From Branchipolynoe longqiensis (lineage: Eukaryota; Annelida; Polychaeta; Phyllodocida; Polynoidae), in assembly GCA_030323885.1 (NCBI GenBank), contig CM059193.1:72391543-72455542 (forward strand): 64,000 nucleotides of DNA, read 5' to 3'. The notes under the pieces are model-generated. The model had not been told where the DNA came from and made no database searches. It saw only the letters and a program-made list of their open reading frames with translations. The translations under genes and the position numbers were made by a program. Below, one piece after another: positions 16,945 to 56,335 of the stretch (position 1 is the first letter of the stretch; every line of letters starts with the position of its first letter).

Positions 16945-17140
16945 ATTGATTGCTTGTTATTTACATGCTTTCAGGACCTCCCAGCATTCTGGCACCAGTT
17001 GGACAATTTTAAGGTGGGCTTCCTCTAGCTCAAATGGCAGAGTGTGGGTCTCAAGATCAGAGGGTAACCGGTTAGAATCTTGGAACTGGAATAATCTTTT
17101 TTTAAAGAATGTTTTTCTACTTTTATTGAATGCATAATTA
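16945..17140 (+). mobile_element. SINE-D (tRNA-like), left flank of the minisatellite
   Basis: Contains a tRNA-like module near 17020-17090 (TAGCTCAAATGGCAGAGTG; GGTAACCGGTTAGAATC), followed by an A/T-rich 3' part. Its inverted counterpart is at 20280-20470, where the better-preserved boxes are TAGCTCAGATGGCAGAGTG and GGTAACTGGTTCAAGTC. The pair encloses the minisatellite. Confidence 0.65.
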
Positions 17141-17164
17141 TATTAATATTAATAAATATACCTT

Positions 17165-20035
17165 TACCTAACTCGACATTGCTCGATGTTACCTGACTCG
17201 GCTTTAACCGGCTCGGCTTTACCCGGCTCGGCTTTAACCGGCTCGGCTTTACCCGGCTCAGCTTTCCCCGGCTTGGCTTTACCCGGCTCGACTTTACCCG
17301 CCTCGACATTACCCGCCTCGACCTTACCCGCCTCGACCTTACCCGCCTCAACGTTACCCTCCTCAAAGTTACCCGCCTCGACGTTACTCGCCTCGACCTT
17401 ACCCGCCTCGACGTTACCCACCTCAACTCTATGCGACCCGACTTCACCCGACCCGACTTCACCCGACCCGACTTCAGCCAACTCGACTTCACCCAACCCG
17501 ACTTCAGCCGATTCAACTTTTGCAGACTCAACTTCATCGGACTTGACTTCACCCAACCCGACTTCACCTGACCCAACTTCACCGACCCGCGTTCACCCGA
17601 CACGATTTTACCCGACCCGACTTTACACAACCTGACTTTACCCGACCCAACTTCTTCACCCAACCCAACTTTACCTGAGCGCACTTTACCCGACCCGACT
17701 TTACCTGACACGACCTCACCCAACCCGACTTCAGCCAACTTGACTTCAAGCAACTTGTCCCGACCTCTACAGGACCCGACCTGACTTGAGTCGGGTAAAG
17801 TCAAGTCGGGTAAAGTCAGGTCGGGTAGAGTCAGGTCGGGCAGAGTCAGGTCGGGCAGAGTCCGGTCAGGCACAGTCAGGTTGGGCAGACTCGAGTTCGG
17901 CAGAGTCGAGTTGGGTAAAGTCGAGTCGGGTCATGTCGAGGTGGGTAACATCGTGTCGGGTAAGTTCGAGTCGGGTAATGTCGAGTAGGGTAATGTCGAG
18001 TAGGGTAATGTCGACCTGACCCCACTTTACATGAACCAAGTTTACCCGACCCGACTTTACACGACTCGACTTTACCCGACCCAAATTTACCGGACTCGAC
18101 TTTACCGGACTCGACTTTACCCACCTCGACTTTACCCACCTCGACGTTCATGCCTCGACGTTACCCACCTCAACGTTACTCGCCTCGATGTTACCTGCCT
18201 CAACATTACCTGCCTTGACGTTACTCACCTCGACATTACCCACCTCCATGTTACCCGCTTTGACGTTACCCGCCTCAACTTTATAAGCCTCGATGTTACC
18301 CGCCTCGACGTTACTCGCCTCAATGTTTCTCCGTTGCCCGACCTGACTCTGCCCGACCTGACTTTACCCGACTCGACCTCACCCGACCCGACCTCACCCG
18401 ACCCGACTTCAGCCAACTTGACTTCAAGCAACTTGACCCGACCTCTACAGGACCCGACCTGACTTGAGTCGGGTAAAGTCAGGTCGGGTAGAGTCAGGTC
18501 AGGCAGAGTCAGGTCGGGCAGAGTCCGGTCAGGCAGTCAGGTTGGGCAGACTCGAGTTGGGCAGAGTCGAGTTGGGTAAAGTCGAGTCGGGTCATGTCGA
18601 GGTGGGTAACGTCGAGTCGGGTAATGTCGAGTCGGGTAATGTCGATTCGGGTAATGTCGATTCGAGTAATGTCGAGTAGGGTAATGTCGACCTGACCCCC
18701 CTTTACCCTAACCAAGTTTACCCGACCTGACTTTACACGACTCGACTTTACCCGACCCAAATTTACCCGACTCGACTTTACCGGACTTGACTTTACCGGA
18801 CTCGACTTTACCCACCTCGACGTTACCCGCCTCGACTTTACATGACCCAATCTCACCCGACCCGACTCACCCGACCCGACTTCAGCCAACTTGACTTCAG
18901 CCAACTTGAGCCGACCTCTACAGGATCCGACCTGACTTGAGTCGGGTAAAGTCAGGTCAGGTAAAGTCAGGTTGGGTAGAGTCCGGTCGGGCAGAGTCCG
19001 GTCGGGCAGAGTCGAGTCGGGCAGAGTCGAGTCGGGCAGAGTCAGGTTGGGCAGAGTCAGGTTGGGCAGAGTCAAGTCGAGCAGCAAGTCGGGCAGAGTC
19101 TAGTCAGGCAGAGTCGAGTCGGGCAGAGTCGAGTCAGGTAATGTTGAGTCGGGTAATGTCGAGTCAGGTAATGTCGAGTCGGGTAATGTCGAGTTGGGTA
19201 ATGTCGAGTCGGGTAAAGTCGAGTTGGGTAAAGTCGAGTCAGGTAAAGTTGAGTCGGGTAATGTCAAGTCGGGTAAAGTCGGGTCGGGTAAAGTACAGTG
19301 GGGTAAAGTTGAGTCGGGTAATGTCGAGTCGGGTAAAGTCGAGTCGGGTAAAGTCGAGTCGGGTAATGTCGAGTCAGGTAAAGTCAAGTCGGGTAATGTC
19401 GAGTCGGGTAAAGTCGAGTCGGGTAATGTCGAGTCAGGTAAAGTCGAGTCGGGTAAAGTCGAGTCGGGTAAAGTCCAGGGGGGTAAACTTGAGTCGGGTA
19501 ATGTTGAGTCGGGTAAAGTCGAATCGAGTAAAGTCTAGTCGGGTAAAGTCGAGTCGGGTAAAGTCCAGTGGGGTAAAGTCGAGTTGGGTAAAGTCGAGTC
19601 GGGTAAAGTCGGTCGAGTTGGGTAAAGTCCAGTTGGGTAAAGACGAGTCGGGTAAAGTCGAGTCAGGTAATGTTGAGTCGGGTAAAGTCGAGTCGGGTAA
19701 AGTTCAGTAGGGTAAAGTCAAGTCGGGTAAAGTCAAGTCAGGTAAACTCGAGTCGGGTAAAGTTGAGTCGGGTAAAGTCAGTCGAGTCGGCTAGGGTCGA
19801 GTCGGCTAGGGTCGAGTCGGCTAAAGTCGAGTCAGCCAAGGTCGAGTCGGCTATGGTCGAGTCGGCTATGGTCGAGTCGGCTATGGTCGAGTCGGCTATG
19901 GACGAGTCGGCAAAGTCGAGCCAGGGCAAAGGCGAGCCGGGGCAAAGTCGAGCCGGGGCAAAGTCGAGCCAGGGCAAAGTCGAGCCAGGGTAAAGTCGAG
20001 CCAGGGTAAAGTCGAGCCCGGTAAGGTTGACTAAT
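17165..20035. repeat. 15-bp minisatellite array with alternating orientation
   Basis: About 2.87 kb of units close to GTCGAGTCGGGTAAA. Orientation switches: C-rich strand up at about 17165-17775, 18019-18458 and 18691-18936; G-rich strand up at 17776-18018, 18459-18690 and 18937-20033. Each C-to-G switch has the same junction (GACCTGACTTGAGTCGGGT), so inverted arms were amplified as a higher-order unit. All six frames stay open for long stretches because 15 is a multiple of three; these frames (SRVKSS, VESGK, LPDST repeats) are not genes. Confidence 0.95.
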
Positions 20036-21357: not shown

Positions 21358-22303
21358 CATCATCATCATCATCATGCTGTCGGTCGCGATGCGACAAAGA
21401 CTGCTTTCATTACTTGACTGCCGCTCTCCATTTAGCTCTCTGCTGTGAGAGTTGCATCCATGAGTCGGTCTTAATGTCTCTCAGCTTCAGGTTTCTCTTG
21501 ATGGTATCTTTGAACCGGAGACGGGGGCGCCCTCTCTTTCTGTAGCCAAAAGACAGTTGAGAATAGAGGATCTGCTTTGGTAGCCTGTCTGATGACATCC
21601 TCATGAGGTGTCCAGTCCACCGGAGATTCTTTTTGATCAGAAGATCTTCCATAGAGGGCAGCCCCATCCGTTCGAGTATTTCCTTATTCGTCAATTTGTC
21701 CTTCCAGGTTAGCCTCATGATTGAACGCAGATGTCGCATCATGAAGGCATGCAGCTTTTTCACCTGCTGTCTGTACGCTGTCCAGGCCTCGGCTCCGTAT
21801 AGTAGGGTGGATAGCACGATTGCGCGGTAGATCTTACCTTTGACCCGAATGGACACATGGTGGTTGTTCCAGAGTCTCTGGCGTAGTCGGCCGAAAGATG
21901 CGCTAGCCTTGGCCATCCTCCTCTGTATCTCAGCATCAATGCGTCCATCACTTGATATTGTGCATCCAAGATAGGTGAATTCCGGAACAGAGTTCAGCTT
22001 GTTTCCGTCAACCATGATCTCCTCCTCTCGGGTTCTTGTAGAGTTGGGTTGGTACAGCACCTCCGTCTTCTTGATGTTAATTTTCAGGCCAAACTTCTTT
22101 GATGCATCGGAGAAAGCGTCCACTATTTTCTGGGTCTCTTCAGCAGAGTGGGCAACCAGTGCACTGTCATCTGCGAATAGTAGCTCTCTCACCAGTATCT
22201 GAGTAGTCTTGGTCTTCGCTCTGAAGTGTGCGACATTGAATAGGTCAGCGCTCTGTCTGGACTGTATATAGATGCCATCCCCCATGTCTCGGAAAGCCTC
22301 GTC
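21358..22303 (-). mobile_element. Non-LTR retrotransposon (RTE/jockey-type), 5'-truncated
   Basis: The minus strand encodes the C-terminal part of a LINE reverse transcriptase. The reading frame from 22303 to a stop at 21410 (297 codons) includes LLFADDSALVAHS (the catalytic YADD-type box), FGLKINIKKTEV, YLGCTISSDGR, LLYGAEAW and the C-terminal RWTGHLMRMSSDRLPK and RPRLRFKDTIKR signatures. It is uninterrupted, so the copy is fairly young. The endonuclease domain and the first RT motifs are missing. A (ATG)n tail on the minus strand (21358-21375 on plus) marks the 3' end. Upstream codons of the same frame are microsatellite read-through. Confidence 0.85.
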
Positions 22304-22580
22304 ATATATATGTGTATATAAGCATATATATCCACATATATGCCTGTATATCACTATATATTTATAATTATGCCTATATATGCATATATATATATATATA
22401 TGGGTATATGCAAATATATATGTGTATATGCATATATATATACATGTATATGTCTGTCTGTATATGCACATACACATATACTGTATGGTGGATATACCAC
22501 ACAGAGAGAAATCCCACTTTGCACCCACACCCACACCCACACCCACACCCACACCCACCCCACACCCACACCCAGCTCCA
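22304..22580. repeat. TATG and (CCCACA)n simple repeats
   Basis: 22304-22480 consists of TATATG/TATATA words; 22512-22575 is a (CCCACA)n run. Both produce repeat-only reading frames. Confidence 0.9.
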
Positions 22581-22639
22581 ATGGCCATCCTTGTGCAGGA
22601 GACTGCTAAAACAACAACCCATCTGCCTGTGTACATTAG

Positions 22640-23060
22640 AATAATGGCTTATATGATGATATACATCATGATTTGTTCATATTGTTGGTTATTTCTCATT
22701 AACTATGTCCAGGATTTTGATTCTAAGAAAAATACTTGTTTAAATAGACCATGGTGTTTCACCAGTAAAAATGACTAATTCCAGAATACAAACAGCACAA
22801 TGTTTTAGGCAAAATAAGATTATCTCTTTATTTTAATGTAGTTTTAATTGAATATTATGAACATACTATACCTTGTAGCATTTTCTTCATAGAAACTTTG
22901 AAGAGCTACTTATAGCCATTTTAATGATGTATTTAGTTAGGTTCCATCCTCAATATTAAAGTAGTGGCAGACTGTGATAGTTCACCCCTATTTGTTTCTA
23001 TATGTAAACTGTCTTGGTTTTTCAAACGTCTTGCTTTCTCAAGACGTTTTGAAATCCAAG
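22640..23060. mobile_element. Dispersed repeat E, copy 1
   Basis: Matches 39435-39720 plus 40195-40350 in intron 1 of the TIR gene, with shared phrases CATGATTTGTTCATATT, GGCAAAATAAGATTAT and CACCCYTATTTGTTTCTA. Copy 1 is uninterrupted, so it serves as the empty-site reference for copy 2. No coding signal or terminal repeat seen. 23061-23436 after it is unassigned. Confidence 0.65.
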
Positions 23061-33825: not shown

Positions 33826-34042
33826 TTACACTGACAACCCGCGGCGAAGTTTGTGCCAGAAGTATCTATCACGATATCTAAGATACACTCTTGTCTGCAC
33901 CCACATCTTCATATCATCTGGTAGTTGACTGAGCACCTCAGGCTGCCTACTGCCTTGGCTTGTGAGATCCTCAAGGAAAACGCTGATGAACCGGAAACTT
34001 GCATCTTGAATACACTTCCTCTTACTCTCCCTAAACTGATAA
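33826..34042 (-). CDS. Exon 3: TIR C-terminal section (box 3) and stop codon
   Basis: A 217-bp exon with 71 codons and a TAA stop at 33828-33826. The acceptor is a pyrimidine-rich tract ending GTCCTAG (34049-34043). The translation begins YQFRESKRKC, continues with FISVFLEDL, and includes box 3 RYFWHKLRRGL near the C-terminus. A consensus donor GTAAGT lies two bases past the stop (33823-33818), so this exon may splice onward into a 3' UTR exon. No AATAAA is visible on this strand in the next 60 bases, where a SINE remnant and then a Harbinger-like element begin. Confidence 0.82.
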
Positions 34043-37000
34043 CTAGGACACAAATTGGGAAAAAAACATAATGAATAGATGAACAAAAATCGGCAATGTC
34101 ATGTCTACAAAAACAAATATATTATATATATATTATATATGTATATTATATATAATATATATTAATTTTATATTTTATATATTATAAATATAATATATAT
34201 ATTATGTCTATTACATATATTAAATATAATATATTTGATTCTATATACAGAATATATATTATACATATTATATATAATATATATTTATTATATATTTTAT
34301 ATACTATATACATTATAACATGTGCTATATATTAAACGTTATATATTATATTATACATAATTTACTACCCACCCCAATGGGCACCCCCTCCCCTGCCACC
34401 ACCCTCAACCATCATAAACAAACCATCAACACACCGAACATCCTCCACAACTATCAACCTGCTTAAACACATTGAACATTATATAAGACAGACAAAATGT
34501 CTTGTCAACTATAAACTTACCTTGTTTTATAAGAGAACAAAATGTAACCCTCAACGATTGTTTGAGTTGCCCCGAGCATACACTTTCTACTTTGTCCTGC
34601 TCCCCATTTTTGCATGAACTACAGTGTGCTGTACATTATACAGCAGGAGCCACTCCCTTAATTCTACAGGATCGGTGCTGTAACTAATACAGCACTGATC
34701 AAACTTAGATTATATAGACTGTCAATTCCAATAGTAAGATGGCCAGAAGACAGGTGCTCTGGCGCTGACAAATGTCATATTCAGATGAATAAACACTTTA
34801 CAACAACAACAAAATATATATATAAGATATATAATGCTTTTGATGTGGATGCTGATGGGAGGGGCAGGGTTAGCCAATAAGGAAGAGCAGTGGAGGTAGC
34901 ACCTACGAGGGATGATAGCCTGTGTAGGGAGGGTTAGACAACATGAGGGTGAGCATAGACACTGTTGTAAGCGACAGGTAGTCGGTGCTAAGAGTAGCGG
35001 GAGCAGTGTGCTGCCAATCACAATTATGGCGGGGAGTGGCTTGGGGGGATCAATGAGTGTATTTAACCAATTGTCTGCATGAACAAAAGCAAGCCTGATA
35101 CCCCTGTCACACTACGACGTAATGAGCCAACGTGAGCCTAACGTGGTGATATTTCGTCATTACGTTGATGTACGTTGGATTACGTTATGATGACGTCATA
35201 ATGACGTTAGAGTGACGTCGAGCTACGTCACATTACGTCGTGTTACGTCGAGATACGTCGAGGTTTTGGACATGTTCAAAAGTTTCGACGTAGGTCGAAC
35301 GTAAGGGTTTACGTTCGCCGTACGTTCTGTTCACGTTCAGCGAACGTCAATGACATTAAACGGACGTTATTCCAATGCTCCTCACTACGTTCAACTACGT
35401 TGACCCCCATTAAACCAAGTGCAAATGCCCACGGGGCGTAATGGGAACGTCAGGACAACGTCAGGAGAACGTCAGGAGAACATGCATTCAACATACGTTC
35501 AACGTCTCATGACGTAGCTAACGTCACGTAACGTTCTTCTGACGATGGAATAACGTTCATAACGTTCCGTCAGCGTCATTACGTTCACCTCTCTCGTCGA
35601 ACGACGGTATCACTACGCTTTACCGACGTTACTCTCTCGTCCACTACGCTGCATCCACGTTCAACTTCTGCCCAAATTTGCATACTACGCCGAGAAGTTC
35701 AACGTTCTTCACGTTCTCCCTACGTTGACGTCGTTACGTCGTAGTGTGACAGCCCCTTGATGGAAAATATATTCAAAAATGTCCAACTTGTGAAATTAAA
35801 CACTTCAACACTGCTCTAAGTTAACTTCTTCAACTGCTACTACACTAGAAGGGTTCAGGTTTTAAAAAAACAAACAAGTGCATTTGTTTCCTGCGAAATA
35901 GAATGTATCATTGTGCTTTCCAGATAAAGTCTATTGATTCCATATTGAGTAGGGCGTTATATAACGGATGTGGCAAAAATATGGATTTGATTATTGGAAT
36001 GATGGCAGCTTGGTGTCTGTGGGGAACCCCTCAGGGTCATGTGATAAGGGAATCCTAACGGTGACATCATTCGTACATTACAGAGCTCAGTATTCTTCCT
36101 CCAAATATTCAGTTGCATGAACTGAAAGACTAGCCAAAGGTGTGCTTGGAGAGCATTTGCCGGAGGACGGCTCCAGTCCCCCAGACCTATGAGGGATCCC
36201 ATCACCATGTACAAAACAAACAAAAAAGCTTGTTTTATTTAACGATGCCTCTAGAGCGCATTGATTTTGTTATTGTATCATCAGCTATTGGAAGTCAAAC
36301 ATATATGATCATTCTGACATATTTCTTTGGAGGAAACCCGCTGCTGCCACATAGACTACTCTTTCCGATAAGGACCATTAGTTCAGTAACATGTACAATG
36401 CACCAATGATATTGTCATGGGGGTGATGAAAATGGGAAATATTGTGCCTAGAGCGGGACTCGAAACCACATCTCTTTGCATTCCGGGCCAGTGTGCTAAC
36501 CATTACACCACCTAGGCTCCCTGATATCAACACACTACCCACGCCTACCTGTCTATGCGGCTCCCTGCCTGAGAGGTCAGTGCAGACAACTACACTCGTC
36601 CCCCTGGAATTGTAAGTCTTTTAATGCTTACAATTACATACATACAGGCAATGCAACGCACTTACATACACAGGGTAGGTTCAACAACTATACAGCGCGT
36701 AGCTTGTACAGGATCCTGGTCAGGGAAACCAGTCTCATGGGGGTGATGAAAATGGGAAATATTGTGCCTAGAGCTGGACTTGAACCCACATCTCTTTGCA
36801 TTCCGGGCCAGTGTGCTAACCATTACACCACCTAGGCTCCCTGATATCAACACACTACCCACGCCTACCTGTCTATGCGGCTCCTTGCCTGAGAGGTCAG
36901 TGTAGACAACTACAATACTATTTAATTAAAGCTGCATATAGTCTGATGAAGTATCAAATTTACAAAACCAAAACAATTATTTAGATTTGATTCTATATAT

Positions 37001-40000
37001 TTAACTTAGATACTAACACACTTATTGAGCATATATTGCCACATAAAAGGGACTACTCAGTCAATTTAATAATAGAACCTGTTACTGCAAAAACATATGG
37101 TGTCAGAGTTGTGCCGTGCTTGCCAAAGCTAATTTGACATGTTTTTTTTTTTTGTCCATTAGTTGTTTAAGCAGGGGAAATTTCAGTCATAGACGACTGG
37201 GCCGTATTCAGGGTCCGTCTCGGAGGCGCCTCGGCGACGTCTCGGCGATGCTTTTTGGTCTATTTGCGTTCAGGGTCCGTCTTGGCGACGTCTCGGCGAC
37301 GCCTCCCTTTTCAGGCAGGAGACAAAAAGCGCCTCAAAAATGGCCGCCGCATTCAGTGCTTTCAGCCAATTACAGCCCAGCTTGTCCATTGCAAATGGCC
37401 GCCACCTATGGAGGCCGCCAACAGCTAAATCCGTTCAGATTAGCCTGACGTCACGGGCGCCTCCGAGGCGCCTCCGAGACAGAGCCTGAACGCGGCCCTG
37501 GTCTTCCTCATTCCACTGCTGGTCGATAGAAAGCCCGAGCCTACACTTTTACCGACCCAAGGGATTTTTAACCTCCTACACCACATAGACATGGTATGAG
37601 AGCAACCGGCCTTTGATGACGCTGTAAGTTATACACAGCGGTGGAAATCCAAATTGGCAGAGCTGGGGGCACGGGGAATCGAACCGCCGACCCTCACATT
37701 AGGAGTCTGACCTAGAAAAAAGTCAAACAGTCTAACCACTCCGCCACAGAGAACGCCATGTTAATACTTCAAATATCTCAAAAGTTAGCCATTTAAAATA
37801 AAAGTTACTTCAAGCTAAAGTAACGTAGACAATAACAATCAGTTTAATTTATTTGTATCAGAAAAGTGACAGAAAGTCGAAATACTCGGACTGCAATTTT
37901 AATTAATTAACTAATTACTATTGTAGTGGTCTGCACTGAGCTCCCATGCAAGGAGCCGCATAGACAGGTTTGCATGGGTAGTATGGTGATATCAGGGAGC
38001 CTAGGTGGTGTAATGGTTAGCACACTGGCCCGGAATGCAAAGAGATGTGGGTTCGAGTCCCGCTCTAGGCGCAACTTTTCCCATTTTCATCACCCCCACG
38101 ACACTACTCAATTGTCTTGAATGAGCGAGGTTGCTCATTCGGTGTCATTGTTGGACATGGCAGGCTCAAGGCCGAAGCCCTCCCCCCCCCCCTGCCACTA
38201 CTGTGGTGGTGGTGGTGGGGGGGGGGGGAAGCCATCTTCCCCCCTCCAGCATATATAACAACTCCTACCAGCCATCATGGCCAGGCACTATCCTGGGGTC
38301 TTCCGGAGCCACCAAAGCTGGTCAGTCTTCTCCAAACGCCCGCACTGACCATTTCCCACCTCCAATTTTACCCACCCACCCACACCTGCAGTTGATTGTG
38401 CCCACAAAATCAACAAAACCAAAAACCAATCAAGCATTTAAACTAAAAAATAAAGAATCCCATCGAATGAGCGGCTGACACCCGCACAGTTGACAGAACA
38501 CACCTACTTAAATGTCACATTTCTGATAATTTACCCTCTACTGTTATCTCATATTTTTATCATTAGCTATTGCTATTGTACTTTAACGTAATTGATTACT
38601 CATTTGTTAAATCATTCACATGACTCATATGCCCTCATCACATTTCATTTTCCCAATATATCGGGGCCTTCGCTCATTCGCTTCTTGCCCGATGATACAC
38701 ATTCAATGTACATGCCGCCGGGCGGGCAGCGCCCGAATAAAAGCCTTGATTAACCCACTCATGCCTCTGAGTCAGCTGTGTCTGTGAGCAATGAGCGATA
38801 GTAAACAAACTTACCAGCAGTTGTTGCTACTGATGTAATTTGGAGTTAGTAGGACAACTGTCCCACAACTCTCATTTATTCTGGTAGCTACATTGTCGAC
38901 TGGATTAATTCCAACAGAGATATCGTAGAAAGTACGGATCTCCCAGAAAGGTAGTTCTCCTATAAAGGTAGAAGAAGCATCATTTAGACAAGATTTCTCA
39001 ACGTTTCATCACGCAACCATTTCATAGACAATCATTAATGCTTGCAAAAAATAATGGTTGTTTTAAAATTAAGTTATACATTGTAATAGAAATTTAAATA
39101 TAAAAATCTTTTGCCTGTAACATTTTGGTGCTTGTATTATAAAATTCGTAATTTTCACCAAGAAACCAGCATGGTCTATACTAATAAACACTTGTCTTAG
39201 AATACAAATGCCATACATAATAAATTAGATATGTAGAATCAAATCTAGATAATTGTTTTGATTTTGAAAATTTGATGCTTCATCGGACTATGCAACTTTA
39301 AGGACCAGACGCGGTGGCCGAATGAGTTGAGCGTCCGTCTCCTTTCTGGGAGATTGGGGGATCCGAAATCATCAGTTTGTGGGTTCGAACCCTGGTCGAG
39401 TCAAGCCAATTGTTAAGCAAGGCCTGCATTTATATTACATTAATGGTTTATATGATGCCACAAATCATGATTTGTTCATATTCTTGGTTATTTCTCAATA
39501 ACTAAGTCTAGGAACTAAGTGAATATTTTAGAACAGACCATGCTCGTTCCCCAATATAACATGACTAATTCTATGATACAAGCACCACAATGTTACAGGC
39601 AAAATAAGATTATTTATTCTAATGTAATGTCAATTGAACTCTCATATTCATAGAAACTGCAAAGAGCTGTTTAAGCCCTTTCTACTGATATATTTTGTTA
39701 GGTTCCCTCTTCAATATGAGCCTGTCTCAAAAGGTGATAACATTTTTTGGGGTCCATTGTAACGATTGACACAAAACAGCACAGAAACCATTACACTGAA
39801 AACACAAGGTTTGATTGATTGATTGGTGGTTGCTTTACGCCGTGTCGGCAGCATAGGCCATATTCAGAGCGAGAAATGTTTTTTTTTTATTCAAACCATC
39901 GCTTTTACATGTAAAGGCAGACAATCAATTATGTGCCAATAGACACTCATTAAATTAGAAAGCTCACAATCATATATTTGTGGTCAAGGGAAACAAATTC

Positions 40001-41770
40001 GGGGACATTTGCTTCAAATCAAGGACACAAGGACATTTGCTTCAAATCAATATGTATTCTATTGGGATTATGAAACACCATGTAAAAAACAAATCAGTTT
40101 ATCGTGAGCAAATGCATAAGCAGATAGTATGTTGATCGTTACAATGGACAAAGTTTTGTCCCATATTGCTTAGCACCTTTTGAGACAGTCTCATATTATA
40201 CACGCTGTCAACTGTGATGGGTCACCCTTATTTGTTTCTAGATGAAACTGACTCTTTTTCTTCTTCTTCTTTTTCCCCCATTTTTCCCCTTTTTTCCCAC
40301 TCAATGCACTTTGAGAAACTGAGACAACTTTAAAAAACCAAGTGTTGCTCCATTCACCACCCACAGCACTACCCTACCCTACCATACCCTACCCTACCCT
40401 ACCCATATCAGCTTACTTTTCATAACTGGCAGGACGTCCGATTCGACCATCTCTCGATCTTTGCTGCTGTAGGAGAGAAACACTATCAACCTATTTGAAT
40501 CGAGCCGGTAAAGGCTCCTCTTAGAAGAAATCCCGTAGAAGATGAGCAGTTGCAAGTTGGCTCTGAACATGAGAGCGATGCTGACCGCGACCAGAATCAA
40601 AATGCCGGCGACAGTCACCGCGATGATGGTCTTCAAGTGGTTGACGGCGTTGCGCATGCACCGAGGCTCACTTCCGCTCCACATACCGGAGTATTGGCAG
40701 CGTCTACTGGAAACGCCGCTGAGATGGAACCCTTCCGCGCAGCTGTACGTCGACTCATTGAGCAGACTGGTGCCCTGAAGCGCAACGCTGCCGTTTACAG
40801 GAGCGTCCAGCGGTGAGCATTTGACTGGCTTGTAGAAGCACACTTCCGGGTCCAGCGATGGCGGGTATGTCCCGCAATGTGCCGGCTGAGCGTGCTGACT
40901 CAGCTTTCCCTGGCATCCCGTCAGCGCTTCGATGCAAGTCTGCGCACAAGGTAGGATCGGCATGTCGTTGTGGCATTTCGGGAAAAAGGAATAACATATG
41001 AATTCCTTAATATACTGATAACAGTTCACTTTTGGACTAAATACAAGCTGTATCCGTTTAATTACGAAAATGGTCTCATTTTCGAACATCATCCCTAGAC
41101 TGTTTGGAAAGGTGGTGGTGTTACGATGTGAACTGATAATATTGTCCTTTGAAGGGCTAGAACAAAATTGTTCCGTTAGATGCACGCACTTTGTTGGAAA
41201 CGTACAATTGAAATCCATGTGTATATTAATATGCAGATCCGGAAATGTTCTATCAGTACATATGTAGCCAATATACAATAGCCATTCGTCAGTCTTGTCG
41301 CCTGTGTAGAAATGTCTAGTTCCCATACAAGTGCACCATCCAGGTGGCCTGAATTCACATCCTGAGTTATCGGAAACGCCAGAACAGGGTACCAAATAGT
41401 AACGGCTTGAAGTGGTGACTTTATCTAAGCCTCTAAAGCATTTTTTGACTGGATCAAACATAGTGTTGGATCGTATCGTCCGTAATGTATCAAAGCTGAA
41501 GACGAGAAAACGTGCAGTGTTTCCAATAAGGAATGATATATTATACTTTATAAATAGTTTATCTGTTGTCAATGAATCGAACTTGATACGCTTGAATGTG
41601 GAAAGATTGATCTCTTTATCGTATGATGAATGGGTACAGGGAACATCTGCATTTGAGGAAGGTATAACAAGGCTCATCAACAGGAGAGCAATAAGTGACC
41701 ATTGGCTTCCGATCTGTACGATAATGTTTGTGTAGGATATGATGCATGCACCACTTTGAAAAATGGCCAT
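33826..41770 (-). CDS. Frizzled-CRD / sushi / transmembrane / TIR receptor, three exons
   Basis: Predicted 571-residue type I receptor that should bind a ligand outside the cell and signal through a cytoplasmic TIR domain. Exons 41770-40417, 38959-38815 and 34042-33826 join in frame (phases 1 and 2; donors GTAAGC and GTAAGT; acceptors TATAG and CCTAG). Residues 1-41 are a signal peptide (hydrophobic SLIALLLMSLVI). Residues 42-190 are cysteine-containing and unrecognised. Residues 195-311 are a Frizzled CRD with ten cysteines (195, 203, 250, 259, 266, 275, 279, 286, 299, 311) and the FPNSLG and FFPKC signatures. Residues 318-371 are a sushi domain (four Cys, W364). The TM helix is 379-401 and TIR is about 426-571. 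Seven N-glycosylation sequons lie in the ectodomain. In TIR, box 1 is FLSYSSKD, the BB loop is DISVGINP (Val467 where TLRs have Pro) and box 3 is FW at 561-562. Phe503 sits where NADase-type TIRs have Glu, so an adaptor-recruiting role is more likely than NAD cleavage (inference). Extra 5' exons are possible. Confidence 0.87.
34100..34365. repeat. TATA/ATTATATA-rich tract
   Basis: About 265 bp of nearly pure A/T with TATATATTATATA words. It lies in intron 2 just upstream (gene sense) of exon 3. Confidence 0.9.
34371..34802 (+). mobile_element. LTR-like dispersed repeat, copy 2
   Basis: Same sequence and orientation as 30628-31075, including the TATATAAGACAGAC and AATAAACACTTTAC landmarks. 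Flanks differ from copy 1, so the two are independent insertions rather than paired LTRs of one element. 34803-35098 after it is unassigned. Confidence 0.5.
35099..35757. mobile_element. Harbinger-like word element, ACGT family, copy 1
   Basis: A 659-bp element flanked by TGA (35096-35098 and 35758-35760). Ends TACCCCTGTCACACTACGACG and, inverted, AGGGGCTGTCACACTACGACG. Throughout, ACGT occurs every few bases as GACGTAA, AACGTT and TACGTC. Related copies at 52430-53098 and 56514-57184 run in the opposite orientation. Confidence 0.85.
35758..36224. other. Unassigned intron DNA
   Basis: No gene, terminal repeat or SINE recognised. Confidence 0.35.
36225..36415 (+). mobile_element. V-type SINE, 3'-truncated
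   Basis: AGCTTGTTTTATTTAACGATGCC, GATCATTCTGACATATTTC and CCGATAAG landmarks. Cut where a SINE-C begins. Confidence 0.7.
36416..36913 (-). mobile_element. Two SINE-C copies (tRNA-like head), same orientation
   Basis: 36416-36594 and 36735-36913 are near-identical 179-bp blocks offset by 319 bp. On the minus strand the head is GCCTAGGTGGTGTAATGGTT with B box GGGTTCGAGTCC. The 7-bp acceptor stem (GCCTAGG with TCTAGGC) and the D stem pair, but the anticodon stem does not, so this is a tRNA-derived SINE rather than a tRNA gene. Confidence 0.7.
36925..37905. mobile_element. MITE-A copy split by SINE-B that is split by a word element
   Basis: MITE-A left part 36925-37140; right part 37766-37905, resuming at AATACTTCAAATATCTC. 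SINE-B (minus strand) occupies 37145-37197 and 37499-37765. The word element 37201-37498 sits inside the SINE-B. This gives a three-step insertion order. Confidence 0.75.
37201..37498. mobile_element. Word element, GGCGCCTCGGAG family, copy 2
   Basis: Ends GCCGTATTCAGGGTCCG and, inverted, GGCCGCGTTCAGGCTC. TGG lies at both junctions. Words GGCGACGTCTCGGCG and GAGGCGCCTCCGAG. Short frames here are shadows of the repeat. Confidence 0.75.
37921..38112 (+). mobile_element. SINE-C copy
   Basis: Plus-strand copy of the same 190-bp unit: GAGCCGCATAGACAGG, then the head GCCTAGGTGGTGTAATGG and the tail CCATTTTCATCACCCCC. Confidence 0.75.
38118..38798 (+). mobile_element. Unclassified repeat with AATAAA and 9-bp flanking repeats
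   Basis: AATGAGCGA occurs near 38120 and again near 38790, like a 9-bp target duplication. Between them are a poly-C/poly-G stretch (38182-38228) and, near the end, a GC-rich stem (GCCGCCGGGCGGGC) followed by AATAAA (about 38736). This may be an LTR or retroposon. No protein domain found. Confidence 0.35.
38815..38959 (-). CDS. Exon 2: TIR middle section (BB loop, box 2)
   Basis: A 145-bp exon too short to show as an ATG-initiated ORF. On the minus strand it follows a pyrimidine-rich acceptor (CTTCTTCTACCTTTATAG) and ends at TG before GTAAGT. It translates as ELPFWEIRTFYDISVGINPV and continues through DNVATRINES and TVVLLTPNYISSNNC. This matches the TIR helix A to strand D region, with the DN-IA--I--S and V-LL-P-Y-SS patterns of Toll/IL-1R domains. 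The phases (two bases in, two bases out) fit exons 1 and 3 exactly. Confidence 0.85.
39226..39420. mobile_element. MITE-A right end joined to a SINE-A head
   Basis: 39226-39302 ends CATCGGACTATGCAACTTTAA. 39302-39415 is a plus-strand SINE-A head (GCGGTGGCCGAATGAGTTG, GGGTTCGAACCCTGG) that stops after about 115 bp. Confidence 0.75.
39435..40350. mobile_element. Dispersed repeat E, copy 2, split
   Basis: 39435-39720 and 40195-40350 match 22640-23060. The break carries a TIR element (39722-40189, ends CTGTCTCAAAAGGTG and its inverse) that itself holds an AATC-tailed retroposon on the minus strand (39810-40040; the tail reads TTGATTGATTGATTGG on plus). Confidence 0.7.
40368..40405. repeat. (TACCC)n simple repeat
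   Basis: Seven imperfect TACCC units at the intron 1 side of the exon 1 splice donor. Confidence 0.9.
40417..41770 (-). CDS. Exon 1: signal peptide, Frizzled CRD, sushi, TM and TIR box 1
   Basis: This 1354-bp exon carries residues 1-451 plus the first base of codon 452. Reading through the donor (GTAAGC at 40416-40411) adds only seven residues before a stop, as expected for unspliced intron. The start used is the first ATG of the open frame; it leaves a rather long 41-residue leader, so a downstream start or a 5' leader exon spliced at an AG near 41718 cannot be excluded. That the whole ectodomain sits in one exon while TIR is split by two introns suggests the ectodomain was acquired as a block (inference). 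Confidence 0.85.
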
Positions 41771-53660: not shown

Positions 53661-53986
53661 GTCAGATATATATATATGCATATATCTAAACTGAATTGGC
53701 AGATACATTTGTGAATTGTTGTTTTTATTCTGATACAAAGTTCTATAATTAGATTTATCAATTTACTTCCTGGTAAGTGTACAAAGCAAGAAGTTTGAAA
53801 AGTCCTCATTCCAAGAAGTTAGTTAGTTGGTTGGTTGTTTGAGTTTTACGTCCTAACACCATCTAAGGTCATATCAGAACAGATACCAACTTGTGACAGT
53901 GCATACTGATGGTGACTTTATAATGCTGCCCCACTGGGAAATTAGGCCGCCGGCACCATGCCCCGATATCCCACCCAGTCACATTG

Positions 53987-56171
53987 GTCGTAATGCGAAG
54001 CATTACGTTTGATGCGAGGGAAGGGAGAGACCCTCCCCCGCCGCTGTGGCGCTCCCTACTCACCTCGGCCGAGCCCCGGCTCGCCCCCCCCCCCCCTCTC
54101 CTGCCAGTCCTTTGTTCTGGCGCTCACGCCTCACCCGACGCCCGCTGCTCGCCACATCTCACCCTCCCCCGGGCCGCCAGCATTCGCACCTCACCGCCTG
54201 TCGCCCCTCCCTCCTCCCTTATAAGGCCGCCCGCCGGCCCTCCTCAGGCACTCACCTCCCTGCCGTCTTCTGCTACCCTTCACTTTTTCCTCTTTGGGCC
54301 TACACCTCGGACCGCTGACGCACACCAGCATCCACCAACCATGCCTCAAGGGAAAGGACGAGGACGAAAGGGCTCCCGGGCCGCCCCCCGGTCCCCGGGG
54401 CCCTCTACGTCGCCCGGGAGGGTCGAGTCACCAAGACCGGTCGCGGTCTCCCCCCCGGCGCCCTCGGACCTTTCCTCGGGCGCCGAGACCTCCTCAGTGC
54501 TGGAGGCTATCCAGCGCATGCAGCTGGAGCACCGGCAGGCCAACGAGGAGCACCGGCAGGCCAACACCGAGCACCGGCAGGCCACTGCTGACCTCCATGC
54601 CCGGATCGACCACATCAGCGCCAACGGGACCCGGCCCGCGCCAGAGGCGCCCCCGCCTGCCGCACCAACACCTCGGGCATCTGCCACCGCCACGGCCCGA
54701 CCGCCGCCGCCCCCCCAGGCGGCCCTCCCCGGAACGACGCACACGGAGTACGGGAGGTACCGCCACATCCTGCCCCAGCTGCAGCCCTCCACATCGCCGG
54801 CCTACCAGGGGGAGGAGACCCGCCACAACCCCGCCTCCACGGCCGACGCCGTCAGGGAAATCCTGGCATCCGCCGAGGCGCGGCATTCAACCAGACGCCA
54901 AGGCATCCCATCCCACTACATCTTCCCCTCCGATCTGGTGAGGCGAGGTCCCGAGAAGAAGCCAGTCAAGAGGGGGGAGGCGACCAAGGACGAATACGCC
55001 CTCGCCCTCCTCACCCTCATCGACCACCCGGACTTCCCCGCCCACTCCGCCCCCGGACTCCACCACCATATCCTATCCATCTGTCGTGACAACCTCCTCT
55101 ATCCCTGGACGACCGTCCGCCACTACTCTGAGGCGGTCTTTACCGCGATCGCGGACGGTACCCTCCCCCATGGCTGGCACGACCCAGTGGCCATAAACCT
55201 CCTCAGACTGGAGTCCCTCGCCATGCCTCCCCACTCCACCACCACCCAACTCCCCTCCCTCGACCCTGCAATGCCCCGCCCCCAGTTCCGCGGCCACACC
55301 GACACACGCGTGGCCTACAGTAAGGAGACCCACAGCCCACTCTGCTATGCCTAGAACCGGGACCCCAACTCCTGCACCCACGCAGCCCCGGGGGAGGTCC
55401 ACGGCCAGGGGGTCTCCAGACAACTACACGCATGCGCATACTGCGCCAATGTCCGGAGGGTACTAACCAGGCACAGCGAGGACGCATGCCTGGCCAAGCG
55501 CGCCCGGGCAGCGGCTCCCGCCTCGCCGGATTTTTGAGGAGCCGGCACCTCCAGCACGGCACGGAGGCCCCAGACCGGCCCACCAACCCTATCAAAGCAG
55601 CCCACCACACTGCTACCAGCCCTCCGGACACCACCGCCCACCCGCCCGAGGCGCGGCCTGCCCGCCGCCTCGGCGCCGCCGTGCCCTCCGGCAACCACCC
55701 CCGCCTCGGGCCCCAGCGCCCCCTCAGTAAGGCTCCCATCGCCGCCCGGCGCCAGTCGCCCGTCACCCTCGACCCAGACATCCACCTCGACCCAGGCGAA
55801 ACCGCCTTCCTCTGCCCCCCTGAACCCACCGACCCCCCCACCGACCCGCCCCACGACCCCCCCCCCGACCGCCCGCGATTTCGCCGCCCCCCTAGCCCGC
55901 CCCCCGCCGCACCTCCTCCCCCGACCCCTGCCCTGACCGCCACCTCGGTACTACCAACCACATCGGCAACCACCGCCCAGTCGGGCCCCAGCGGCCCCTC
56001 AGTAAGGCTCTCACCACCGCCCACCGCCACCAGCCCGCCACGGACCACAGCCCAGCCCAGCCCAGTTTGCCCGAGGCGCGGCCCGACCGCCGCCTCGGCA
56101 CTGCCGACCTCATCGGCAACCACCTCCAAGTCGGGCCCCAGCGCCCCCTCAGGAAGGCTCTCATCGCCTGC
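53987..56171 (+). mobile_element. GC-rich retroelement fragment: 5' terminal sequence, gag-like ORF, proline-rich repeats
   Basis: The start GGTCGTAATGCGAAGCATTACG is a terminal hairpin shared with the solo LTR at 43427. A TTATAAGG box (about 54219) precedes the ORF by about 120 bp. After the gag-like ORF come three diverged copies of a GGGCCCCAGCGCCCCCTCAG block (about 55710, 55983, 56137). There is no reverse transcriptase and no second LTR, so the copy is 3'-truncated or internally deleted. GC content and codon use differ sharply from the surroundings. Confidence 0.65.
54341..55537 (+). pseudogene. Gag-like (ORF1) protein of a retroelement, broken by one in-frame TAG
   Basis: From ATG at 54341 (context CCAACCATG) the frame gives MPQGKGRGRKGS, a basic, proline-rich N-terminus. 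Then come three heptads EHRQAN(E/T) predicted to be coiled coil, and a folded segment KDEYALALLTLIDHPDFPA followed by LHHHILSICRDNLLYPW and HDPVAINLLRLESLAMP. A TAG at 55352-55354 stops it. The same frame then continues 60 codons with NRDPNSCTH and a C-X2-C-X9-H-X4-C knuckle (CAYC...H....C) to TGA at 55535-55537. One substitution would explain the break; natural readthrough is possible but unproven. The frame is also open upstream of 54341 to 53984, but that lies partly in the terminal sequence. The parent family may be DIRS/Ngaro-like or LTR; uncertain. Confidence 0.6.
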
Positions 56172-56335
56172 CACTGAGCCAACCAGTCCTTGCCCTAGCC
56201 TACTAATGCTGAGTGCCAGGCTAGGAAGCGGAAAGTAGCAATTTTATAAGTCATCGGTTTGACTTGACTGGGAACCGAACTCCCGATCTCCAGTACGGGA
56301 GGCCCGCGCTCTACCAATTCAACCGGTCAAGAAGT

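Follow-up and report, generated by a model that had tools for sequence, protein, structure and literature searches.

A predicted single-pass receptor joining Frizzled and Sushi domains to a TIR domain in the annelid Branchipolynoe longqiensis

Does the annelid Branchipolynoe longqiensis possess a receptor in which a Frizzled (Fz) cysteine-rich domain (CRD) and a Sushi domain are joined, through a single transmembrane (TM) helix, to a TIR domain, and what might such a protein do? The TIR receptors known from animals mostly have leucine-rich repeat (LRR) or immunoglobulin (Ig) ectodomains. The question is raised by the window, a stretch of 64,000 nucleotides (C8:72391543-72455542, on contig CM059193.1, in a genome of 1.85 Gb and 1914 contigs), on the minus strand of which a preliminary description, made from the sequence alone, had placed three exons encoding such a protein. 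Our analysis makes it quite probable that the gene encodes a Toll/IL-1R-like single-pass receptor of an old and small family, with an ectodomain made of GOLD-like, Fz and Sushi domains, which would signal via paired TIR domains.

The three exons and their phases, as first proposed, were recovered with exact borders. Exon 1 lies within an open frame of 471 codons from stop to stop; its ATG, at 41770, stands in the context GCCATGG, and a GTAAGC donor directly follows 40417. Exon 2 is bordered by the acceptor TTTATAG and the donor GTAAGTTT, and exon 3 by the acceptor GTCCTAG, with a TAA at its end. Joined by GT-AG splicing, they form one frame of 571 codons plus the stop. For exon 3, three acceptor positions were compared, and 34042 alone leaves the frame open; a shift of one base either way leads to stops. 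No polyadenylation signal of the type AATAAA/ATTAAA was found within 1.4 kb of the stop. The gene and the domains of its product are arranged as follows (window coordinates):

40417..41770, minus strand: exon 1, with the start codon, the signal-like stretch, the probable GOLD-like domain, the Fz CRD, Sushi, TM and the N-terminal ~25 residues of TIR (in all, residues 1-451 plus one base)
38960..40416, minus strand: intron 1, 1457 bp, phase 1
38815..38959, minus strand: exon 2, residues 452-499 plus two bases, the central part of TIR with the BB-loop region (GT-AG borders, in frame)
34043..38814, minus strand: intron 2, 4772 bp, phase 2, repeat-rich
33826..34042, minus strand: exon 3, C-terminal TIR with the FW of box 3, and the stop codon
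41645..41770, minus strand: signal-like region, residues 1-42, by hydropathy
41189..41644, minus strand: probable TMEM145_N/GOLD-like beta-sandwich domain, residues 43-194, by profile-profile match and low-confidence models
40838..41188, minus strand: Frizzled CRD, residues 195-311, ten cysteines, by Pfam, solved-chain matches and model
40658..40819, minus strand: Sushi (CCP) domain, residues 318-371
40559..40636, minus strand: single TM helix, residues 379-404 (model helix 376-404)

The domain search that the preliminary description had called for placed Fz, Sushi and TIR above their Pfam cut-offs, an outcome that favors that description. Fz (PF01392) matched residues 216-302 (E 5.2e-9; 37.1 bits vs a cut-off of 32.1) inside the predicted CRD at 195-311, the ten cysteines of which were found where they had been announced (195, 203, 250, 259, 266, 275, 279, 286, 299 and 311). 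Sushi (PF00084) matched 318-371, borders identical to those first given (E 1.5e-8; 35.4 vs 20.7), with its four cysteines present. The TIR domain, assigned to 426-571, was matched by both TIR_2 (PF13676; 430-526, E 1e-8, 36.1 vs 28) and TIR (PF01582; 431-533, E 2.9e-5, 24.4 vs 21.3); its boxes 1 (VFLSYS) and 3 (FW) are recognisable and box 2 is atypical. A hydropathy peak at 382-400 (mean 2.95), the only TM peak after the signal-like stretch, agrees with the helix predicted at 379-401, and the presumed signal peptide corresponds to a hydrophobic stretch at about 16-38 (peak 1.8), judged by a hydropathy threshold rather than by a dedicated signal-peptide predictor. The same Pfam scan of the protein gave no LRR or Ig family up to E 10, and no Frizzled seven-TM family. 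Among solved chains, the CRD matched Frizzled-7, -2 and -8 by sequence, the Sushi domain matched Sushi modules of complement receptors and selectins, and the TIR domain matched Toll-like receptors 1, 6 and 10; by model fold, the CRD matched Frizzled 5, 8 and 7, with Smoothened and MuSK also in the list.

Residues ~43-194, which the preliminary description had left unassigned, are probably a beta-sandwich related to the TMEM145_N/GOLD domain, judging from sequence profiles. A profile of this region, built without P0005 (a database relative, see below, whose gene model begins inside the domain), matched the TMEM145_N domains of the same genome in profile-profile comparison (E 9.4e-6, probability 82.8, with 20 shuffled controls); the relation was weaker in the other tests. 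TMEM145 is counted among GOLD-domain proteins in an excerpt of PMC9711517. Two TMEM145_N loci were noted in the genome. At C9:49.83 Mb (L076, 1279-2577), an open reading frame (ORF) of 433 codons carries two tandem TMEM145_N matches and, by eye, a hydrophobic tail, with no seven-TM domain apparent in the ORF; it may represent GOLD-like domains outside the GOST proteins, perhaps with a glycosylphosphatidylinositol anchor. At C17:44.53 Mb (L080, 1504-2568), a TMEM145_N exon fragment (WWYVAASKCGSVK) occurs in many repeats within a low-complexity array.

Is this combination peculiar to one gene? Profile scans of the whole genome gave 27 Fz matches at E <=1 (14 above cut-off) and 31 TIR_2 matches (20 above cut-off), and the ORFs of 22 loci were inspected. 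Fz and TIR occur in one uninterrupted frame at three places, C10:51514574-51515581, C5:65404266-65405246 and C18:23677699-23678712, with ORFs of 569, 544 and 586 residues, respectively, from the first methionine. In these paralogues, Fz and Sushi are above the Pfam cut-off in all three and TIR in two, and a hydropathy peak for a TM helix lies between Sushi and TIR in each. The window TIR is itself missing from the two genome TIR-family scans because it is split by introns. A search of 5.8 billion proteins with the single protein and with two-row and ten-row profiles yielded six relatives in all (P0001-P0006), each with Fz, Sushi and TIR above cut-off and a TM peak. Between the window protein and P0001, identity is 34% at 92% coverage (E 3.2e-84 against the 5.8 billion), a likeness to a near-full-length protein that cannot be put down to chance. 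Identity to P0001-P0003 is evenly spread, at 30-34% in the N-terminal domain, 37-45% in Fz, 31-35% in Sushi and 35-37% in TIR. A genome search with P0003 gave 15 matches, the top four places being the window gene and the C5, C10 and C18 genes; the best TIR match outside the family was a C7 gene (E 1.5e-11), LRR plus TIR by Pfam. The order Fz-Sushi-TM-TIR is thus kept in ten proteins, namely the window protein, its three paralogues and P0001-P0006. The preliminary architecture, and the kind of molecule it implied, a single-pass receptor, therefore draw strong support from profiles, homologues and paralogues.

These relatives also bear on the splice joins. The six-frame search with P0003 recovered exon 3 separately (C8:72425374-72425583, E 6.1e-7), and the part encoded by exon 2 is 19-42% identical to the nine relatives. 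In the alignment, the second join is crossed without gaps in all nine and the first in six, one residue being missing there in P0004-P0006. The uninterrupted ORFs of the paralogues, with their identical order, lend the predicted joins part of the support that transcripts would give.

All ten cysteines of the CRD are present in eight of the ten members, and eight are invariant throughout; P0001 and P0002 are the two members that lack both the third and the eighth (250 and 286). The corresponding two cysteines of the Frizzled 8 CRD are bonded to each other, and their joint loss fits the prediction of a real Fz disulphide pattern. Because P0001 and P0002 are 84% identical, the loss probably represents one event, not two.

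How old is the family? In an unrooted IQ-TREE phylogeny of whole proteins (480 columns), the C18 protein groups with P0004-P0006 (support 98.5/98) and the C5 and C10 proteins of this genome group together (98/99), while the window protein stands beside P0001-P0003 with a support too low to settle its placement (39/64), although a quick FastTree analysis gave 0.95. However the tree is rooted, P0001-P0003 or P0004-P0006, or both, nest among the paralogues of this animal. P0001-P0006 likely come from other organisms and, if so, this nesting implies that at least one duplication predates a species split. Since four diverged members exist in one animal and other database contigs contain relatives, the combination did not arise by recent accident; on sequence grounds, we consider it a real, old and small receptor family.

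What the protein does can be framed from better known receptors. In Toll and IL-1 receptors, the ligand pairs the ectodomains, the TIR domains meet and adaptors are recruited. By analogy, a ligand (a Wnt-type lipidated protein, a free lipid or a microbial product) would bind the CRD, along with the Sushi and GOLD-like modules. At least two receptors would then assemble, their paired TIR domains would attract an adaptor with a TIR domain, such as MyD88, and this recruitment would lead to an NF-kB-type output. We infer the cell-surface location and dimerisation of the window receptor and, more tentatively, the class of ligand (Wnt, lipid or microbial) and the MyD88/NF-kB output; the preliminary description had already suggested such ligands and NF-kB-type signaling. 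Fz CRDs are reported to dimerise around fatty acids, which offers a simple way in which a lipid, or a ligand carrying one, could pair the TIR domains. A narrower proposal for this ancient GOLD-Fz-Sushi-TM-TIR family, namely that the Frizzled CRD senses a ligand of Wnt or lipid type which directly pairs the TIR domains, so that Wnt-class recognition and Toll-type signaling meet in a single molecule, is rather improbable.

Several observations weigh against this reading. The hydrophobic N-terminal stretch exceeds a simple threshold in only three of the ten members (the window, C10 and C18 proteins); several homologue gene models look truncated at their start. The C10 TIR is slightly below both Pfam cut-offs (26.4 vs 28 and 19.9 vs 21.3). 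The predicted structures are of low confidence (mean pLDDT 54.9 and 57.3). The BB loop of the window TIR reads ISVG, without proline, and PG is found in only four members (C5 and P0004-P0006); its CCYQ motif ends in glutamine, at a place after the conserved cysteine where eight of the ten members have glutamate. The adaptor use of the window copy may therefore differ. Lastly, a tree of TIR domains only, which took in 13 of the 31 genome TIR_2 loci, sets P0004-P0006 apart from the other TIRs of the family, so that their TIR may have a separate history; many nodes of this tree have support below 0.8, and a truncated C9 TIR adjoins the family.

Among the alternatives, the first is that of a true Wnt receptor, with a CRD that binds Wnt through its palmitoleate, assisted by the GOLD-like domain, so that Wnt directly drives TIR signalling. 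It agrees with the Frizzled matches of the CRD, by sequence as well as by model, but at the sequence level the resemblance is weak (Frizzled-7 comes first, E 4.1e-4). Fz CRDs are also present in proteins that bind ligands other than Wnt, and the fold list itself includes Smoothened and MuSK. The GOLD domain of WLS touches Wnt, according to an excerpt of PMC9711517; however, the N-terminal domain was likened to TMEM145_N, the comparison being made with that family and not with WLS. We regard a dedicated Wnt receptor as doubtful. A second alternative is that the ectodomain binds ligand while the TIR does not signal, the protein acting as a decoy, co-receptor or dampening receptor that pairs with, or takes adaptors from, better-conserved paralogues or Toll receptors. 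The missing BB-loop proline and the glutamine in place of glutamate favor this, whereas the C5 paralogue retains both PG and glutamate. Yet the window TIR passes both Pfam cut-offs, with boxes 1 and 3, if not box 2, in recognisable form, and its identity to P0001-P0003 (35-37%) falls within the 30-45% range of the ectodomain domains, which indicates that it is not visibly freed from constraint; we consider a non-signaling or altered role of this copy unlikely, but a serious alternative. Finally, a chance position of a Fz-Sushi membrane gene just before the TIR exons of another gene is extremely improbable. Although the predicted joins span repeat-rich introns of 1.5 and 4.8 kb, exon 1 itself already encodes the first ~25 TIR residues and the same order exists in the six homologues and, in single ORFs that effectively refute an exon-joining artefact, in the three paralogues.

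Some observations concern other TIR loci and the surroundings of the gene. Three TIR genes without Fz were scanned with Pfam, namely the C7 LRR-TIR gene, a gene at C8:44 Mb and a fragment on C2 (C2:82). The second of these (C8:44.1 Mb; L021, 577-2196) is a single ORF of 540 codons, hydrophobic at its N-terminal end and lacking any recognised ectodomain. The C2:82 fragment is similar to TLR2 and TIRAP, and weakly so to MyD88; for another fragment, C2:71, a PDB search returned no match. Intron 2 contains two elements resembling miniature inverted-repeat transposable elements, at 35104-35752 (dense in ACGT-type words) and 37199-37498, with terminal inverted repeats of 22 bp (95%) and 41 bp (85%), as well as copies of a short interspersed element-like repeat derived from tRNA-Ser(GGA), at 36410-36929 and 37907-38106 (~190-200 bp, 90-91% alike, two in the same orientation and one inverted). 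Elsewhere in the window, there is a reverse transcriptase ORF of long interspersed element type at 21410-22648 on the minus strand (RVT_1, E 2e-7), a long low-complexity repeat at 17025-19993, many frames of which are open on either strand (one was scanned and gave no Pfam family), and, at 53924-56243, a stretch in which both strands carry long open frames that overlap (no Pfam family in the two scanned).

How does the protein compare with known systems? Like Toll-like receptors (LRR-TM-TIR), it has a single TM and, at its C-terminus, a TIR domain in which boxes 1 and 3 are present, but their ectodomain is made of LRRs, which it lacks, having a probable GOLD-like domain, Fz and Sushi instead. 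Like IL-1R-type and other non-LRR TIR proteins, it joins TIR to extracellular-type domains, Fz and Sushi in place of their Ig or EGF. An Fz domain above the Pfam cut-off, ten cysteines and fold matches relate it to Frizzled, Smoothened and MuSK; however, the first two have seven TMs with a G protein-coupled receptor core and MuSK a kinase, whereas it has one TM and a TIR. Its N-terminal domain is probably related to TMEM145_N, as in GOST proteins (TMEM145, GPR180, TMEM87 and WLS), in which a seven-TM domain follows the GOLD domain, unlike the single TM found here. Domain shuffling around TIR is shared with amphioxus, in which 20 of 28 TIR combinations are said to be amphioxus-specific (PMC2575513). 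The excerpted literature names IG-TIR and EGF-TIR in oyster and Aplysia and Ig-TIR in sponges (PMC4346834, PMC9334734, PMC8242945), and one sponge receptor figure legend names a frizzled domain (PMC8242945). In excerpts of the immune and receptor literature, the TIR partners named are LRR-TIR, Ig-TIR, EGF-TIR, ARM-TIR and others, not Fz-TIR, and searches of an open-licence collection, which leaves out subscription papers, showed no description of an Fz-TIR protein. One may nevertheless exist in print, and Fz-TIR may be among the amphioxus combinations, the full partner list of which lay outside the excerpts.

As far as its sequence can tell, the window receptor is real, conserved and unusual in composition, and of the single-pass TIR receptor kind. 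If the proposed mechanism is true, a TIR tail bearing a Frizzled-type ligand domain would tie Wnt or lipid recognition directly and physically to Toll signaling, and the family would allow one to test what Fz CRDs can sense outside Wnt signaling.
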